Shown piece after piece: positions 1,315 through 56,992 of a stretch of 64,000 nt of DNA. The DNA lies in the IMG/VR virus record IMGVR_UViG_3300027754_004582, positions 1 through 64,000 of that record; one strand, written 5' to 3'. A program made the translations under genes and the position numbers. Below the pieces are notes generated by a model. It did no database searches. It was given only the letters and a program-made list of their open reading frames with translations, and had not been told where the DNA came from. Numbering within the stretch: the stretch's first letter is position 1; each line of letters opens with the position of its first letter. This stretch comes from a virus.

Positions 1315-3564
1315 TTAAGCTATTAATGTTCCTCCTTGGAAATACCAATTATTTCCTGAGTTGGTAATGTTTAATCCTGCACCTGGTTTAGTTGTATAAA
1401 CTCTATACACCCCTGCAGGTATGTTTGTTGAACCTGTATAATTAACAATAAAATTGTAATAAGATGAATTCACCCCTGTGTCAGTTGCTGGTGGATTTGC
1501 ATTTCCGTTTTTAATTGTTGAATACTTTTGTCCGTTTGTTGAACCTGTTGCAACCATCCAAGTATACCAAGCAACTTCCCCTGATGGAACTGTTGTATTT
1601 GAAACTACAATTGTTTGGAATTTGTATGCCGTAATTGCATTACCTTGTGCATCGTTTCCTCCACTTGTTGTTGATATTGGTGCAGTTAGAATTGCAGGTT
1701 CAGATACACCCCACCCACTATAAGAAATATAAGCATTCATTTGAGCCGTGAATGTTACTTGTGATGCGGTGCTAGGTGAAGTAAGATTGAATCCTCTAAA
1801 CGCACTTCCTTGAGCCGCCATATAGTTGTTCAATGCAGTTCTTATTGTAACATCGTTTCTATCAATGAACAAGTAAGCTTGTAATGCTGGTTGACTTGCT
1901 GTTGGTGAAGTTGTTTGTGTTGGCGTTGCACTTGCCGTTTGTGTTTGAGTTAACGTTGCAGTTACTGAAGGTGTAGGTGTCTCAGTTTGACTTGGAGTCA
2001 TTGTTTGAGTCTGAGTTGGTGTCAATGTAGGTGTTGGAGTCATTGTCTGAGTCGGAGTCATTGTCTGAGACTGACTTGGTGTTTGAGTAGGTGTTGCGGT
2101 TTCAGTTGCCGTCAATGTTGTTGTAGTTGTAGGTGTTGGAGTTTGAGTTTCAGTTGGAGTTGTTGTAGGTGTCGGACATACAACAGAACCTGAAATCACA
2201 CCATTAATAAGTTGCCATCCGCTGTTGCTAGGAAGAATTAAGTAACCAGATGGGAAAACATCTGAGAAACTTGTACCACTAAAAATCCAATTATTATATG
2301 GAAGTGAAGAGAATGCATATGCCGTGTACGATGGAATTGATGAACAAGCGTCTGAAAGTGATGTTTCAGAAAATCTTGTATTATAACTAACTACACTCCA
2401 AGAACCAGGTGTTTGGGTTGGTGTTTGAGTAGGTGTTGGAGTTTCTGTTGCAGTTAATGTTGTTGTAGTTGTTTGGGTTGGTGTTTGAGTAGGCGTTGCG
2501 GTTTCTGTTGCTGTTAACGTTGTTGTTGTTGTTGGTGTTGCAGTTTGTGTTATTGTATTTGTTGGCGTTAATGTTGGAGTAACTGAAGGTGTCTGAGTTG
2601 GAGTTTCGGTTTGAGTCGGAGTTTGAGTTGGAGTTTGAGACGCAGTATTTGTTGGTGTTGTAGTTTCAGTTGTTGTTGGAGTTGGTGTTTGGGTTTCAGT
2701 ATTTGTTGGAGTATTTGTTGGTGTTTCAGACGGTGTTATTGAAGGTGTTACTGTTGGTGTTGCAGTTGAAGTTGGAGTTACCGCTGGAGTTGCACCAGGA
2801 CTTAATGTTGGAGTTGTAGTTGGAGTCTGTGTTGGAGTCTCACTTGGAGTTATTGTATTAGTAGGAGTTTGTGTTGGAGTCGCACTTTCACTTGGTGTTT
2901 GTGTTATGGTTTGTGTTGGAGTTAAAGTAGGTGTAACACTCGGAGTTTGTGTCGGAGTTTCAGTTGTTGTTGGAGTTTGCGTAGGTGTTTCAGACGCAGT
3001 ATTTGTTGGCGTTAATGTTGCAGTATTAGTTGGAGTTTGTGTTGGAGTTTCAGTATTTGTTGGTGTTGGTGAACTTGTTGGTAATGGACTAGCTCCTGGA
3101 CTTAATGTTGGCGTTGTAGTTGGTGTTTGAGTTGGTGTAACACTTGGAGTTTGTGTCACAGTTGGTGTATTTGTTGGTGTTTGAGTTGGTGTAACAGCAG
3201 GAGTTGATGAAGGTGTTGGTGTGTTTGTCGGAGTCTGAGTCTGAGTTGGTGTTTGGGTTGGAGTTTCAGTGTTTGTTGGTGTATTTGTTGGAGTAACACC
3301 TCCAGTAGTTGAGGTTGGTGTCGGAGTAGGTGTAGGTGTTGCACAACCTAAAGGAATTACCACACCATTGAACATGTCTGTTCTTGTATATCCTGAACCG
3401 AATAATGAAGTATCAACATAAATGCTGAATGGACCCAAAGCGTTTGAGTTGGATGCTAACCTTACTATGTATGTTGTACATGTAGTTGCACTAACTTGTT
3501 GTGTTATTGAAGTATCATTACAACCAGGTGCGTTATTTACGACTAATATATTATAAAGGGCCAT
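1315..3564 (-). CDS. Thr-Pro-rich mucin-like surface protein
   Basis: 749 aa in four parts. Residues 1-75 are a folded N-terminal segment with paired Cys ([19 protein letters not shown]). About 75-390 is a long TPTxTPT array rich in Thr, Pro, Gln, Asn and Ser. About 390-465 is a small globular insert (begins GSWSVVSY, ends SVVCPTP), followed by a second TP array to about 555. About 560-749 is a Gly/Asn/Tyr-rich C-terminal domain that should be beta-structured. TP arrays of this kind behave as extended, protease-resistant linkers and are possible O-glycosylation substrates. The place in the fibre cluster suggests a virion surface or fibre component that displays its globular parts on long stalks. 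No enzymatic motif is visible. The family is not recognised beyond its architecture. A TATTTAT motif lies 16 bases upstream. Confidence 0.8.
1900..3345 (-). repeat. Thr-Pro-rich coding repeat arrays (two blocks)
   Basis: Two blocks, about 1900-2175 and 2405-3345, consist of degenerate 6-base units coding [10 protein letters not shown] and TETP. They are separated by a non-repetitive globular insert. Purely coding repeats with strong codon and residue bias. Confidence 0.85.
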
Positions 3565-3580
3565 CCGCTGATTTTATTTA

Positions 3581-10119: not shown

Positions 10120-10127
10120 TATAAATA
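10120..10127 (-). promoter_or_regulatory. TATTTATA upstream motif
   Basis: Coding-strand TATTTATA lies 15 bases before the 302-aa gene, in a 41-base spacer that otherwise holds only A/T tracts. Confidence 0.5.
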
Positions 10128-51555: not shown

Positions 51556-52067
51556 TATATTCCTCTAAATTCATTTTCACTTACCCAAGTAGCCGTAACC
51601 GTTCTGTAGAATGGTTTATAACCACCGTAAGTGTGTTTATTATCAGACCTAACAAGTCCGTCATCAATAACAGTATAATATCTAACCCTATCCTCTGTTT
51701 CATAATATCCAAAGTAATCACCCATAAAAATATTAACGTCCATATCCTCAAGAGTTTTTTGGTAAATAGAAAATTTCATATTACCTGGCTCATCTTGTTT
51801 AATCTTAGAATTTCCGAGAAGTTTGTTTTGTGGTGCCATAATTTGAACCAATCCCTTAAGTTCAACAGGTGCCATGAATTGAATACCGTCTTCCAATACT
51901 TCACCATATACACTATCTGTTTTAGTCTTGTATCTATCAATTCTATAAAGAATAACTGTGAAGTTCATATCACCCAATAACCACTCCTCACCCATACCAA
52001 TATCCAAGGCATAGTCTTCACCACCAAAGAATTTTCCTAAACGCGTAATTGGTACTAATTTTTGCAT
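51555..52067 (-). CDS. Neck protein candidate (gp14 place, 170 aa)
   Basis: Begins MQKLVPITRLGKFFGGEDYA, central EWLLGDMNFTVILYRIDRYK, and IFMGDYFGYYETEDRVRYYT near the end. Beta-rich with conserved-looking aromatic positions. It is the first gene of the minus-strand tail block and precedes the gp15-place gene by a one-base overlap. Head-to-tail connector proteins of T4-like phages (gp14) occupy this place, but the sequence is not diagnostic. The start has TATTTATC only five bases upstream, so the mRNA may be near-leaderless. Confidence 0.65.
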   Translation of the reverse strand: MQKLVPITRLGKFFGGEDYALDIGMGEEWLLGDMNFTVILYRIDRYKTKTDSVYGEVLEDGIQFMAPVELKGLVQIMAPQNKLLGNSKIKQDEPGNMKFSIYQKTLEDMDVNIFMGDYFGYYETEDRVRYYTVIDDGLVRSDNKHTYGGYKPFYRTVTATWVSENEFRGI

Positions 52068-52072
52068 ATATT

Positions 52073-52080
52073 GATAAATA
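52073..52080 (-). promoter_or_regulatory. TATTTATC upstream motif at divergent gene start
   Basis: Coding-strand TATTTATC lies five bases before the 170-aa gene, in the 47-base region between divergent minus and plus operons. Confidence 0.4.
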
Positions 52081-52114
52081 CTTAAAGAGTTATTATATTT
52101 CCAACAAAGACATT

Positions 52115-52513
52115 ATGAGATTAGATACTCCGAGTAAAATTTATGTTGACAATAGTCCAATACATGGATTAGGAATCTTTGCTAAAGAAAAAATATTAGT
52201 TGACGAAGTGTTTGAGGTTTGTCCTGTAATTGATATGGGAATGAAGTTTGGTGAGTCTAGTCACATATTAATTGATTATAGATTTAATTGGCCACAAGGT
52301 GGTGGTGAATGGACAAAACAAGTTGTAACTGCAGGTTTTGGTATGTTATATAATCACAGTAATAATGCCAACGCAAATTGGAGGTCTAACTTTGAAACAA
52401 ACTCTTTTGAGTTCTTTGCAACAAAAGACATTAACCCTGGTGATGAAATCTTTGTTTGGTATGGTGATATGAGTTATTGGAACGATGGAAGAAATCATAT
52501 GAATATTATTTAA
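52115..52513 (+). CDS. SET-domain lysine methyltransferase-like protein
   Basis: 132 aa from the ATG at 52115 (MRLDTPSKIYVDNSPIHGLG); an upstream TTG reading is rejected. SET signatures: SPIHGLGIFAKEKI at residues 14-27, NHSNNANANW at 80-89 (the NHS pseudoknot element), and NPGDEIFVWYG at 107-117 with the catalytic-type Tyr. Small SET proteins methylate lysines in histones or other proteins using S-adenosylmethionine. In a phage the target would be a host or phage protein. Six bases separate it from the SNF2 helicase gene, so the two are probably co-expressed. Origin by transfer is likely. Confidence 0.85.
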   Translation: MRLDTPSKIYVDNSPIHGLGIFAKEKILVDEVFEVCPVIDMGMKFGESSHILIDYRFNWPQGGGEWTKQVVTAGFGMLYNHSNNANANWRSNFETNSFEFFATKDINPGDEIFVWYGDMSYWNDGRNHMNII

Positions 52514-52518
52514 TTAAA

Positions 52519-54270
52519 ATGGAAGTTAGTTTAGAATCTAAGGCGTTAACATTGTTGGAAACATATGAAGGAGCAAACAACTATATATTGGAGCTGAAAA
52601 GAAAATCTCAAATTAATAGAAAGTTTTACCCAACAAGAAGTCAATCTGAATACATTATTAACAACCACGACAAACAACCTAAGGTTGCTAAGAAGTGGGT
52701 TATACTTGATGCTTATTTTGCCCAGAAACTTGCTGATGATAGATTAATGACTGAAATACCTGAAAAGGTTTGGGTTGAGAAGTTATTGGCAGACAAAGAA
52801 AAAGCTTTTCATATTTGGGGTAAAATTACTGAATCTCAAGAACTACATGATTTTTGGTTACCTAAAGCGTCAATAATTAAAGATAACACAGTTAAAGATG
52901 TTGTTATCAGTTATGAAAAATATTCTAATCGTCCTCCGTTAGCACATCAAAAAGAAGCAATTCAAAAATTAGTTGAGAATAAGAAATTTATCTTGGCTGA
53001 TGATATGGGCCTTGGTAAAACCACGTCCACGATTATTGCCGCTCTTGAAGCTGGTGCTAAAAAAATATTAATCATTTGTCCCGCAACTTTAAAAATTAAC
53101 TGGAAGAGAGAGATTGAAAACTACACAGACAGGTCAACATATATTGCCGAAGGAAAAAACTTTTCAACCGAACATGACTTTGTTATCATAAACTATGACA
53201 TTATAAAAAATTTCCATGACCCTAAGAAAAAAGATGATTCGCAAATTCTTAGAGCCGATTTTGATTTGGTTATCATTGATGAAGCACACTATATCAAAAA
53301 CGCTCAAGCCCAAAGAACAAAACTAATTAATGATTTAGTAAAGAAAGTTGACCGACTATGGTTATTAACGGGAACACCAATGACTTCTCGCCCGATTGAC
53401 TATTATAATCTATTAAGTCTAATAGATTCTCCTGTTGCCAAGAATTGGATGGCATATGTTATAAGATACTGTCAAGGATATCAATTTAAAGTTGGTCCAA
53501 GAAAAGTTTGGAATGTCATGGGTGCTTCAAATTTAGAAGAACTAAGAGATAGAACAGTGGGATTAACATTAAGGAGATTAAAAGAAGATGTATTAGATTT
53601 ACCAGACAAAATTATTACACCTGTTTACCTTAGATTAAAATCTAAATTGTATGAAGAAGTAATGGGTGATTACTATAATTGGTACGAAAAAAATCCTGAG
53701 GAATCAAAATCACTTACGGTTCAATTTACAAAACTTACTAAAATAAGACAAATCATTGCCGATGAAAAGATTACTCAAACAATTGAATTAGCCGAGAATA
53801 TTATTGAGCAGGATAAGAAGGTTATTATATTCTGCAACTTTACAGATTCACTTAATAAAATTTGTGAACACTTTGGTAAAACAGCCGTTAAACTTGACGG
53901 TTCAATGTCAAAAGGAGAAAGACAATTATCTGTTGACCAATTCCAAGACAATGAAAAAGTTAAAGTTTTTGTTGGAAACATTAAGGCGGCTGGTGTTGGA
54001 CTTACTCTCACCTCTGCCGAGGCGGTTATTATGAATGACCTTTCATTTTTGCCATCCGACCACTCTCAAGCAGAAGACCGAGCTTACCGATACGGTCAAA
54101 AAAATAATGTATTAGTTTACTACCCAATATTTGAAAACACAATTGAAGGAATTATCTACGACATATTAGCAAATAAAAAACAGGTTATATCTACAATCTT
54201 AGGCGATAACCAAAACAGTCCTGATGCGGCTGAAGAAATCTTAAAAAGAATTAATGAAATGCGTCGTTAA
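52519..54270 (+). CDS. SNF2-family DNA-dependent ATPase/helicase
   Basis: 583 aa from the ATG at 52519 (MEVSLESKALTLLETYEG); an earlier in-frame reading overlaps the SET gene and is rejected. Motif I ADDMGLGKTT at about 162-171, motif Ia ICPATLKINWKREI, motif II IIDEAHYIKN at about 252-261, motif III LLTGTPMTSRP, motif V AAGVGLTLTSAEAV, motif VI QAEDRAYRYGQ at about 515-525. The DEAH and GQ-type ends are SNF2/SMARCAL1-like, which translocate on DNA and remodel or anneal forks. It may take the fork-remodelling role that UvsW plays in T4. The N-terminal 145 residues are a separate unrecognised domain. Confidence 0.9.
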   Translation: MEVSLESKALTLLETYEGANNYILELKRKSQINRKFYPTRSQSEYIINNHDKQPKVAKKWVILDAYFAQKLADDRLMTEIPEKVWVEKLLADKEKAFHIWGKITESQELHDFWLPKASIIKDNTVKDVVISYEKYSNRPPLAHQKEAIQKLVENKKFILADDMGLGKTTSTIIAALEAGAKKILIICPATLKINWKREIENYTDRSTYIAEGKNFSTEHDFVIINYDIIKNFHDPKKKDDSQILRADFDLVIIDEAHYIKNAQAQRTKLINDLVKKVDRLWLLTGTPMTSRPIDYYNLLSLIDSPVAKNWMAYVIRYCQGYQFKVGPRKVWNVMGASNLEELRDRTVGLTLRRLKEDVLDLPDKIITPVYLRLKSKLYEEVMGDYYNWYEKNPEESKSLTVQFTKLTKIRQIIADEKITQTIELAENIIEQDKKVIIFCNFTDSLNKICEHFGKTAVKLDGSMSKGERQLSVDQFQDNEKVKVFVGNIKAAGVGLTLTSAEAVIMNDLSFLPSDHSQAEDRAYRYGQKNNVLVYYPIFENTIEGIIYDILANKKQVISTILGDNQNSPDAAEEILKRINEMRR

Positions 54271-54283
54271 ATAATTATTGGAT

Positions 54284-54290
54284 TATTTAT
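54284..54290 (+). promoter_or_regulatory. TATTTAT upstream motif
   Basis: Plus-strand TATTTAT lies 20 bases before the SOD-nuclease gene. It has the same orientation relative to its gene as the minus-strand copies. Confidence 0.45.
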
Positions 54291-54310
54291 TATATGGATA
54301 ATCCAAACAT

Positions 54311-55849
54311 ATGAAGAAATTAGAAGAAAAGGTAGAACAACTGGAAACCAAAATACTTGAAAACCACGTTAACAAAGAAAAAGAACAGTTACTTACCGAA
54401 ATGAAGAAAATTGGAATAGAGAAATTACCCTATTCCTACTCAGCCCTTAAACCGTTCATTGACCCCGAGACAATGGACTTTCATTATAACAAACATTATA
54501 AAGGGTACGTGGATAAATTGAATGATGCTCTCTCAAAGAAAAAAAACGGGGATTTAGAATTAGAGCAAATCATTAAGAACATTAGTCGTTACGACAAGTC
54601 AATCAGAAATAATGCAGGTGGAGCATTCAATCACGCATTATTTTGGAATATGTTGACACCAAACCCAAAAAAACTTGAGGGGGAACTTTATAAAAAAATT
54701 GTAAATCAATTTGGTAGTTTCACACAATTCAAGAAAAAATTTGAGGCCGTTGCTAAAGATAGATTTGGTTCAGGATGGGTATGGTTAGTTCTAACCGCAA
54801 AGAATACATTAAAAATAATGTCCACACCAAACCAAGACAATCCATTAATGAATGTGATTGAAGGTGGTGGGTTTCCACTATTAGGGTTGGACCTATGGGA
54901 ACACGCATATTATTTAAAATACAGGAACAAAAGAGACGAATATATTGTAAACTTTTGGAAAGTTGTTAATTGGGATTTTGTTACAAAAATGTATGAAATG
55001 AAAACCCAAACAAAGTTAATGGAGTCTGTTGAGTTAGGTAAAATTATTACTGAATCGGCAGATGCAAAGTTCTGTGACGCAAAAGAAATTTTATTTTTTA
55101 AAGATTTAATTAACAATTCTAAAATTAAAAGAAGATACCAAGATGGAGTAACTGACGTATTAAGAACAGTATTCCATGATTTTTGGGTTGAGAGTACGAC
55201 AAAAGAAATGTCAGGATTCTACGGAGTTGAATCTAAAGAAGGTAGGTCAATTCTTAATAACCTTAACACCAATTTCAATGCATTTTGTTTATTGGTTAAA
55301 GCGGTTAACAGACAAATTGAAAATATTGGTAGAACCGATAAGATTTTTAATTTTAGTTTTAAAGAAAATAGAACACTGAAAGAAGTAGAAAGATTTCTTA
55401 ACGCTTTAGACCATTTCAAAAAACAAATTTTTACAAAAAACAATGAAGACTTTATTAACATTATTAAAGTTTTAAAAAAGTTATGGGACAGAGGACAAAA
55501 ATCTGAAGATAACGTTCAAAAGAAACTTGAAGATTATTTTGAAGGGGATGCAAAAGTTGAAAAAATTGGAGGTCACGGACAAAAAAGAGATGCCTTTAAA
55601 GGTGTTGATATGGTTATTGAAAAGGATGGTAAAACACATACCGCCCAAGTAAAACCATATTCAACGGCAAGTATAGATGGTGATAAGGTATCGTTATCAG
55701 ATACTGGTAATGTTAAACCTTATAACGTGAACTGGTTAATTTTTATTCAACCTAAAACTAATAAGATATTAATATTTGATAATCATCCATTACAAAACGA
55801 AAATCAATATATATTTAAGTTAAGTTCACTTCTTCACGAAATAGAATAA
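54311..55849 (+). CDS. Mn/Fe superoxide dismutase fused to PD-(D/E)XK-like nuclease domain
   Basis: 512 aa. Residues 1-35 are a charged helix. Residues 38-225 are a complete SOD: ligands H58 (FHYNKHY), H108 (NHALFW), D194 and H198 (LDLWEHAYYLKY), with AGGAFNH and STPNQDNPLM (Q175, as in Mn-type enzymes). Residues about 235-395 are helical and unrecognised. Residues about 395-475 carry GHGQKRDAFKGVDMVIEKDG and then AQVKPYS: D433 and the Q446-V-K448 pair give the core of a PD-(D/E)XK-type nuclease fold, followed by strand NWLIFIQP. The superoxide-removing domain is probably active. The nuclease assignment is tentative. No signal peptide, so cytoplasmic or virion. It lies between SNF2 helicase and neck protein genes. 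Confidence 0.85.
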   Translation: MKKLEEKVEQLETKILENHVNKEKEQLLTEMKKIGIEKLPYSYSALKPFIDPETMDFHYNKHYKGYVDKLNDALSKKKNGDLELEQIIKNISRYDKSIRNNAGGAFNHALFWNMLTPNPKKLEGELYKKIVNQFGSFTQFKKKFEAVAKDRFGSGWVWLVLTAKNTLKIMSTPNQDNPLMNVIEGGGFPLLGLDLWEHAYYLKYRNKRDEYIVNFWKVVNWDFVTKMYEMKTQTKLMESVELGKIITESADAKFCDAKEILFFKDLINNSKIKRRYQDGVTDVLRTVFHDFWVESTTKEMSGFYGVESKEGRSILNNLNTNFNAFCLLVKAVNRQIENIGRTDKIFNFSFKENRTLKEVERFLNALDHFKKQIFTKNNEDFINIIKVLKKLWDRGQKSEDNVQKKLEDYFEGDAKVEKIGGHGQKRDAFKGVDMVIEKDGKTHTAQVKPYSTASIDGDKVSLSDTGNVKPYNVNWLIFIQPKTNKILIFDNHPLQNENQYIFKLSSLLHEIE

Positions 55850-55867: not shown

Positions 55868-56992
55868 ATGGCAGCAATACCAGAACCAGAAAGGTCAAAA
55901 ATTTATACGAGAATTAAACACCAATTAGGTGCGCCCTTAAGAAGTGTAGAACTTGAGGACGAAATGTTAGACTCATTGATGGAATTAGCAATTGGAGATT
56001 ATGAAGAATATATCCTTCAGTGGTTAATTGATTCTCAATGGGTTAACTTGGTTAATTTAAACATGAATGAAAGGTCTGTGGCAAGAGCCCTTGTTACAAG
56101 AACAATGGATTTTGAACAACAATTCTCATATTCGTATTCTAAAATTGTAGGTCTTCAAACTGAAGGTCCTTGGGTTTTAAAGAAAGATTATTTTGTTCTT
56201 GAACAGAATGTGCAAACTTACGAAATTCCTGCAGGTAGAGAAGTAAATGAATTATTATGGTTTTCTGACCAAGCTTGGAGTGCATATGGTTTAGGTGGTG
56301 CTGGTGGGTTTGGTGGATTTGGTGCGTTGGGTGGTGACCAAGCGGGTTACGCTCAAATGGGAAATGGTGGTTCTTATTTTATGATGTCAGGTTTTGATTA
56401 TTTAATTAGAATGCAAGAAGCCAACATCCTTAGTAGAATTTTAGGTGGTTCATTAACATATAGAATAACAGGACTACCTGACGGTAAAAAGTTAATACAT
56501 TTAATGAACACCCCTGGTGGTAAATTTAATTGGTCAAGTTATAGTCAATATGTGGGTAAAGCCGTTTGGTATTGGTATTATGATGTAGAACCTGATAGTA
56601 GAGCCGATTGTTTGAAAAATAATCCTGATATTATTAAATTACCAACAGACGTACCTATTGAAGAGTTAACTTGGATTGATTTAAATGTTCCTGGTCAACA
56701 ATGGGTTAGAAGATGGTTTACGGCTTACTGTAAAGAAACTTTAGCGAGAGTTAGAGGAAAATATAGTGGCAACCTTAAAACACCTGATTCTGAAATTGTT
56801 ATGGACTATCAAAGTTTATTAACAGAGGCCAAAGATGAAAAATCAAAATTAATTGAAGAATTGATTGGTGCTGAAGGTTGGTTAACCAGAATGAGACCTG
56901 ACAAAGTAATGGAGAGAGAAGCATTAATCGCTGAAAACCTAAATAAACAAATGAAGTTCAGAGCAATGCCTCGTCAAATTTACGTAATATAA
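55868..56992 (+). CDS. 13: Neck protein gp13-like
   Basis: 374 aa. The N-terminus (YTRIKHQLGAPLRSVELEDE) and the region WVRRWFTAYCKETLARVRGK followed by YSGNL match T4 gp13-like head-completion proteins (309 aa). A Gly-rich insertion (GGAGGFGGFGALGG, about residues 145-160) is unusual and may be a flexible loop. The C-terminal helix region reads SLLTEAKDEKSKLIEELIGA. In T4, gp13 with gp14 seals the filled head for tail attachment. It is on the plus strand, apart from the minus-strand tail genes. One-base overlap with the next gene. Confidence 0.82.
   Translation: MAAIPEPERSKIYTRIKHQLGAPLRSVELEDEMLDSLMELAIGDYEEYILQWLIDSQWVNLVNLNMNERSVARALVTRTMDFEQQFSYSYSKIVGLQTEGPWVLKKDYFVLEQNVQTYEIPAGREVNELLWFSDQAWSAYGLGGAGGFGGFGALGGDQAGYAQMGNGGSYFMMSGFDYLIRMQEANILSRILGGSLTYRITGLPDGKKLIHLMNTPGGKFNWSSYSQYVGKAVWYWYYDVEPDSRADCLKNNPDIIKLPTDVPIEELTWIDLNVPGQQWVRRWFTAYCKETLARVRGKYSGNLKTPDSEIVMDYQSLLTEAKDEKSKLIEELIGAEGWLTRMRPDKVMEREALIAENLNKQMKFRAMPRQIYVI

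Follow-up and report, generated by a model that had tools for sequence, protein, structure and literature searches.

We examined a 64,000-nucleotide stretch of viral DNA (IMG/VR record IMGVR_UViG_3300027754_004582, positions 1 to 64,000; hereafter the window). An intact plus-strand open reading frame (ORF) at positions 54311-55849 runs from ATG to stop and encodes a protein of 512 amino acids. As judged from its sequence, this protein comprises a leader of about 30 residues, a manganese superoxide dismutase (SOD), and a PD-(D/E)XK nuclease. The fusion of the SOD and nuclease domains is real and conserved. The parts of the gene are listed below, with a vertical bar marking putative protease cleavage positions.

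54311..55849, plus strand: SOD-nuclease fusion gene (512 amino acids), assigned on the basis of 68 distinct full-length homologs
54311..54400, plus strand: N-terminal leader (residues 1-30), a predicted helix that ends in L/I-x-E30 (LLTE|M) and has L/I-x-E17 inside
54416..55000, plus strand: predicted Mn-type SOD domain (residues 36-230), with ligands H58, H108, D194, and H198 and with Q175
55016..55027, plus strand: putative prohead-protease site 1 (residues 236-239, L-M-E|S)
55046..55057, plus strand: putative prohead-protease site 2 (residues 246-249, I-T-E|S)
55055..55846, plus strand: predicted PD-(D/E)XK nuclease module (residues 249-512), a helical part followed by a core with E399, D433, Q446, and K448

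A preliminary description of this DNA had proposed an SOD with all four metal ligands and the Mn-type Gln intact, fused to a PD-(D/E)XK-like nuclease. Both halves of this proposal agree with our results, which draw on Pfam matches for the SOD and on a structural model, Foldseek searches, and conserved residues for the nuclease. Pfam Sod_Fe_N matches residues 36-115 (E 2.7e-24; 85.9 bits against a curated cut-off of 27) and Sod_Fe_C matches residues 123-226 (E 5e-40; 136.1 bits against a cut-off of 20.9). The SOD part is approximately 45-49% identical to solved MnSODs, and the top sequence match in the PDB is the Sphingobacterium MnSOD 6gsc. Furthermore, the ligands H58, H108, D194, and H198, the gateway residue Y66, and the Mn-type Gln (Q175) are invariant among 15 diverse full-length members, and a strict pattern for the SOD motif is matched by 64 of 66 proteins. 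The Asp ligand is preceded by G192-L193, which we take to be the pattern of Mn-specific rather than cambialistic staphylococcal SODs. This part of the protein is therefore read here as a complete Mn-type enzyme whose predicted active site is intact.

The C-terminal part had to be approached through structure. Residues 236-512 matched no family in Pfam, PADLOC, or NCBIfam, and a PHROG search of this domain returned only weak, chance-level matches for some homologs. In a first AlphaFold2 model of the whole protein, a leader helix (residues 2-34) appeared at low confidence, the SOD part was poor because the alignment was shallow, and Foldseek results were dominated by the SOD. Therefore, we instead used a model of residues 237-512 built from a 26-sequence alignment, which has a predicted local distance difference test score of 84 and a predicted template modelling (TM) score of 0.75. 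In this model, E399 is on a long helix, one strand begins with D433, and the following strand carries Q446-x-K448, an arrangement that is PD-(D/E)XK-like. The D...QxK core mentioned in the preliminary description is thus present, with E399 on the preceding helix as an addition. All four residues are invariant across the family, including a standalone homolog that is only about 27% identical. Upstream of this core, the module has an extra helical part of about 150 residues that bears an invariant N-x-N-T motif.

The best Foldseek matches in the PDB were I-Ssp6803I (probability 0.99-1.00) and the Holliday junction resolvase Hjc 1gef (probability 0.99; TM 0.53 by target), followed by SPARDA nuclease chains and RecU, and nearly all top matches were PD-(D/E)XK proteins. 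Because the E-values were weak (0.008 and higher, with a range of 0.008-0.05), the fold assignment was made mainly by probability and consensus. The likeness to Holliday junction resolvases is in fold only, given that sequence searches of Pfam, NCBIfam, and the PDB gave no match to that family. Among viral models, the best match was A0A6J5L953 (TM 0.79), followed by an uncharacterised marine phage protein of 1113 amino acids. On the strength of the model, the C-terminal domain is well supported as a PD-(D/E)XK nuclease that is nearest to I-Ssp6803I and Hjc resolvases, rather than a fold unrelated to nucleases. This nuclease family has so far been seen only in jumbo/mega phages. Separately, the T4 head-completion protein gp4 was considered as an ancestor and ruled out (hhalign probability 0.05 in a single-sequence comparison).

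The same domain order occurs in many other phages. A first scan of IMG/VR yielded 80 loci, essentially all with a full-length fusion, and a search with a C-terminal profile gave 126 relatives. Distant relatives were reached with a core-only profile. Our alignment set comprises 68 distinct full-length fused proteins, including that of the window. Several relatives are on contigs of 309-326 kb. A close-relative scan of IMG/VR with the homolog from phage LR756501 found no relatives. Both domains are under purifying selection, with a median ratio of nonsynonymous to synonymous substitution rates (unsaturated pairs) of 0.04 in the SOD, 0.19 in the core of the nuclease, and low values in every part. 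Like the preliminary description, we found no account of an SOD-nuclease fusion in the literature searched, which mostly lacked subscription papers and preprints; as far as that literature shows, the fusion is undescribed. Because A0A6J5L953 (501 amino acids) is named 'superoxide dismutase', the fusion is probably already in UniProt with only its SOD recognised.

The fusion is not obligatory. One clade (L162, L164, L165, L168-L173, L207, and L219-L223) carries a 294-amino-acid nuclease without SOD at the same locus, and a second clade (L211-L216) carries a 278-amino-acid nuclease, likewise without SOD. Sod_Fe_C was not found in the whole 272-, 308-, and 309-kb contigs of SOD-less phages or in the 735-kb genome of LR756501, and it was present as one copy in each of six fused or split records. 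In L193, a gene for a 241-amino-acid SOD is followed by a separate nuclease gene. More distant standalone nucleases were found in two phages: LR756501 (735 kb), where the neighbour is a SET gene, and LR745206 (635 kb), where it is a DNA polymerase gene. In addition, nuclease paralogs with the helical and PD-(D/E)XK parts and without SOD lie elsewhere in a 317-kb and a 272-kb relative (L234:1246-2517 and L250:892-2019).

To place these alleles, we used a backbone tree of the neck protein, a 170-amino-acid protein, and the polymerase, with a root of our own choosing; LR756501 is too distant to fix it. L193 and L211/L215 are nested inside the fused clade of this tree, and in the nuclease tree their nucleases group with the standalone clade (support 100/100). 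The simplest reading is that the fused gene was replaced by a standalone allele in these phages and that the SOD persisted as a separate gene in L193. Because each of the three deep branches includes fused members under the chosen root, the fusion is probably old and the SOD was probably lost at least twice. A derived novelty of one lineage is not favoured, given the same distribution. The standalone nucleases of L171 and L207 keep a leader that resembles the fused leader (1-2 of 2000 shuffles were as good), which is consistent with internal loss or gain of the SOD. The preliminary description had also considered a frameshift with two separate genes in relatives. Separate genes do occur, in L193 only, and the SOD is absent from other relatives; the L193 nuclease appears to be a standalone replacement, and the fusion is old and maintained. 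A chimeric assembly or a frameshift of two genes, for which L193 is the one supporting case, has practically no chance of being correct and was ruled out: there are 68 distinct fused proteins from many samples with the same synteny and no stops, and purifying selection spans the junction region.

Three annotated genes flank the fusion gene in the window.

52049..52513, plus strand: SET-domain gene; divergent or missing at the same place in relatives
52477..54270, plus strand: SNF2-type helicase gene, directly upstream of the fusion gene and intact in the window
55868..56992, plus strand: neck / head-tail adaptor (Ad2-like) gene, directly downstream of the fusion gene (phrog_211, E 4e-10, and synteny)

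The plus-strand island with SET and SNF2 genes that had been described previously is present. Because its order runs SET-SNF2-SODnuc-neck(Ad2)-111-amino-acid gene, the island also holds a head-tail connector gene. The order SNF2-fusion-neck-111-amino-acid gene-polymerase is conserved in relatives, and the SET gene in front is divergent or missing. The SET spot is thus hypervariable, yet a SET gene also adjoins the standalone nuclease in LR756501. A 7-bp inverted repeat (GGATTAT/ATAATCC) lies between the SNF2 and fusion genes at window positions 54271-54310.

The SNF2 gene bears intein-like inserts in some relatives. In L193 (1763-4609), the insert is inside the DEAH box and is overlapped by an out-of-frame ORF of 267 amino acids (2769-3572) that looks like a zinc-ribbon and Vsr/DUF559-type homing endonuclease. 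A different, LAGLIDADG-like intein is in the Walker A motif of the SNF2 genes of L215 (2488-5376) and L211, and the L076 SNF2 protein is also enlarged (959 amino acids). Likewise, the portal protein of a 309-kb relative (G006:202754-205567) has 938 amino acids compared to about 620, with an intein-like start CIAGDTKIATPDG.

These are large freshwater phages that likely have a Bacteroidota host. The window has a GC content of 33% and a Shine-Dalgarno-like site in 2 of 28 genes, its polymerase is closest to Salinibacter phage polymerases, and the nearest bacterial SODs in a seed-limited search were from Fluviicola and Sphingobacterium. The closest match to the phage SOD in the bacterial collection is a stand-alone SOD with a short leader, ILRE|G (L338:2920-3645); its contig is filed as Fluviicola and might be phage-derived. 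A late-promoter motif, TATAAATA on the plus strand (TATTTATA on the coding strand), showed no excess over shuffles. It occurs at window positions 10120, 18704, 42658, and 44571, in each case 11-23 nucleotides upstream of a minus-strand gene start. The count is not above chance, yet the placement looks non-random.

Protease-like motifs at the domain borders suggest how the fusion protein might be used. The window protein has eight L/I-x-E motifs. Those that are well kept among the 68 fused proteins, namely E17 (66/68), E30 (68/68), E238 (68/68), and E248 (67/68, the other protein having M-x-E), are all in the leader or linker and have a variable P2 residue; the remaining well-kept motif, E197, belongs to the D-x-W-E-H of the SOD active site. 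At E238, P2 is L, M, T, N, V, Q, or I, and P1' is S or T in all 68 proteins, and the linker is variable apart from the protease-like motifs. When a P1' residue of S/A/G/Q/T/M is added to the pattern, there are exactly three matches in the window protein, all at domain borders. T4 gp23 carries FLTE|A at residue 65, and a conserved [FYH]LINE|A is present near residue 60 in the major capsid protein of the large relatives. In these relatives, the scaffold, the protease, and several other proteins have L/I/V-x-E motifs after short leaders. A search of five large relatives found Peptidase_S77, the prohead protease family, in every one (E about 1e-22 to 1e-25); one relative's S77 protease is encoded at G002:106400-107113 on the minus strand. 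When 166 ortholog groups were compared, the first 35 residues showed a 2.9-fold enrichment of conserved L/I-x-E motifs whose P2 varies, the highest value among the ten residues tested. The T4 protease gp21 cleaves C-terminal to L/I-X-E, and T4 heads can carry, process, and eject leader-fused foreign proteins, nucleases included (PMC9026906); the protease of phage SPN3US cleaves after A-X-E (PMC10052503). The conserved motifs and the protease are consistent with capsid processing of the fusion protein, and they do not prove it. Recurrent N-terminal leaders such as MKKIVRLTESDLVRLVKRVVKE were also seen on unrelated proteins of G002 (e.g., 98879-99343, 177517-178391, and 217278-217736), and these may be capsid-targeting propeptides.

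Based on these sequence features, we regard the chances as about even that the fusion protein is a capsid-internal polyprotein from which cleavage inside the prohead yields an SOD and a nuclease. The leader would bring the precursor into the prohead core, where a prohead protease of the T4 gp21 type (S77) would cut it after E30 and after E238, E248, or both. In the mature head, SOD and nuclease would then be separate proteins, and both may pass into the host along with the DNA in the manner of T4 internal proteins. There, the SOD could dampen superoxide as infection begins, and the nuclease could act on DNA, either that of the host or phage DNA (branched replicating or packaged). The fuller proposal, that a head polyprotein delivers both enzymes, which are separated by the protease and ejected with the genome against oxidative stress and for DNA processing in the first minutes, we hold tentatively, at somewhat less than an even chance. 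It is the catalysis, virion location, cleavage, ejection, and biological role of the protein that we infer here.

Several points weigh against capsid processing. The window's own contig, a 94.5-kb fragment, is without a protease gene, and the fusion gene is beside SNF2, neck, and polymerase genes rather than in the core-protein cluster. The P1' set was picked after seeing the sequence, and the residue that follows E30 is Met, which is unusual for a prohead-protease site. The L/I-x-E motif is short and could be structural (helix capping), and its N-terminal enrichment is modest, with Q at 2.5-fold and S at 2.1-fold in the same region. Finally, a nuclease packaged in the head would need to be kept inactive there.

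The most substantial alternative, although we consider it unlikely, is an uncleaved cytosolic enzyme of late infection, in which an Hjc-like nuclease acts on branched DNA in recombination or packaging. Its host-derived SOD would be attached mainly for co-expression or dimerisation and would detoxify superoxide in the infected cell. Such an enzyme would fit with Hjc and RecU resolvases as fold neighbours, with the gene's position between SNF2 helicase and DNA polymerase genes, and with the DNA polymerase gene that adjoins the distant LR745206 homolog. Because MnSODs form dimers or tetramers, the fusion would also bring two nuclease domains together. However, this alternative leaves unexplained why L/I-x-E motifs with variable P2 are exactly at the domain borders, and the SOD was probably lost at least twice with the nuclease retained.

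The preliminary description had suggested a redox-linked DNA-processing protein, a defence or counter-defence protein, or a redox-protected virion component. If the SOD protected or regulated the attached nuclease, covalent coupling would be the point of the fusion, as its retention in 68 distinct proteins and the slow evolution of the SOD, its slowest-evolving part, might suggest. We judge this improbable because the SOD and nuclease are naturally separate in L193 and the SOD is lost in sister phages, whose 272-309-kb genomes have a standalone nuclease at the locus and no SOD found elsewhere. The variable linker, in which the protease-like motifs are kept, weakens the proposal further. A counter-defence role, in which the nuclease breaks down plasmids or the DNA of defence islands and the SOD works against a superoxide-based defence, strikes us as very improbable. 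It would be compatible with a capsid polyprotein, and an anti-restriction protein is among the internal proteins that T4 ejects with its DNA (PMC9026906). However, there is no direct support for it: neither the fusion nor the nuclease has a PADLOC match, no defence or counter-defence neighbours were recognised, and the SNF2 matches to ZorD/DpdE reflect generic helicase similarity. The virion component is the option nearest to a capsid polyprotein, the evidence for which came from outside the preliminary description.

If the capsid polyprotein is correct, an abundant lineage of freshwater jumbo phages loads its heads with an antioxidant enzyme and a nuclease made as a single cleavable precursor, extending T4 internal-protein logic to two enzymes. 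Superoxide would then seem to matter when phages enter the host, and L/I-x-E sites would provide a simple rule for listing which proteins of uncultured jumbo phages are delivered by the capsid. Even if there is no virion role, our analysis defines an unannotated PD-(D/E)XK family that is shared with megaphages, and the naturally occurring series of alleles (fused, split, and SOD-less) reveals which part is dispensable.

Each part of the fusion protein has known counterparts. The whole SOD is 45-49% identical to Fe/Mn SODs of the SodA type (Sphingobacterium 6gsc, E. coli, and Deinococcus MnSOD), with ligands and Gln in common; unlike these enzymes, it is phage-borne, preceded by a leader, and followed by a nuclease. 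Phage-borne Fe/Mn SODs are also carried by PA5oct-like Pseudomonas jumbo phages and Vibrio phage 2.275.O, whose matches (about 29% identity) are confined to the SOD part, with none to the nuclease module. Virus-encoded SOD is among the virion-packaged redox enzymes of giant viruses (PMC9405923), although the Cu,Zn-SOD of Megavirus chilensis and other giant viruses belongs to an unrelated enzyme family of eukaryotic viruses and has no nuclease. The nuclease shares its core fold and E-D-(Q)xK site with I-Ssp6803I, Hjc/Hje, RecU, and the SPARDA nuclease, whereas it has no sequence match to known PD-(D/E)XK nucleases in Pfam, NCBIfam, or the PDB and adds its helical part of about 150 residues. The standalone proteins of LR756501 (L001:5998-6870) and LR745206 (L241:4617-5372) have the same nuclease module and catalytic residues, but they lack the SOD domain. 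A0A6J5L953, from an uncultured Caudovirales phage, matches the nuclease module over 283 columns (TM 0.79 by query) and, judged by its name and length, is very probably another fusion member, although its record names the SOD only. To our knowledge, no T4 internal protein or SPN3US ejection protein is an SOD or a two-enzyme polyprotein, and the fusion protein would not be expected to resemble them in sequence. What the fusion protein would share with the T4 internal head proteins (IPI-III and Alt) and the SPN3US ejection proteins is the proposed logic of a propeptide, x-x-E sites, packaging, and ejection (PMC9026906, PMC10052503).
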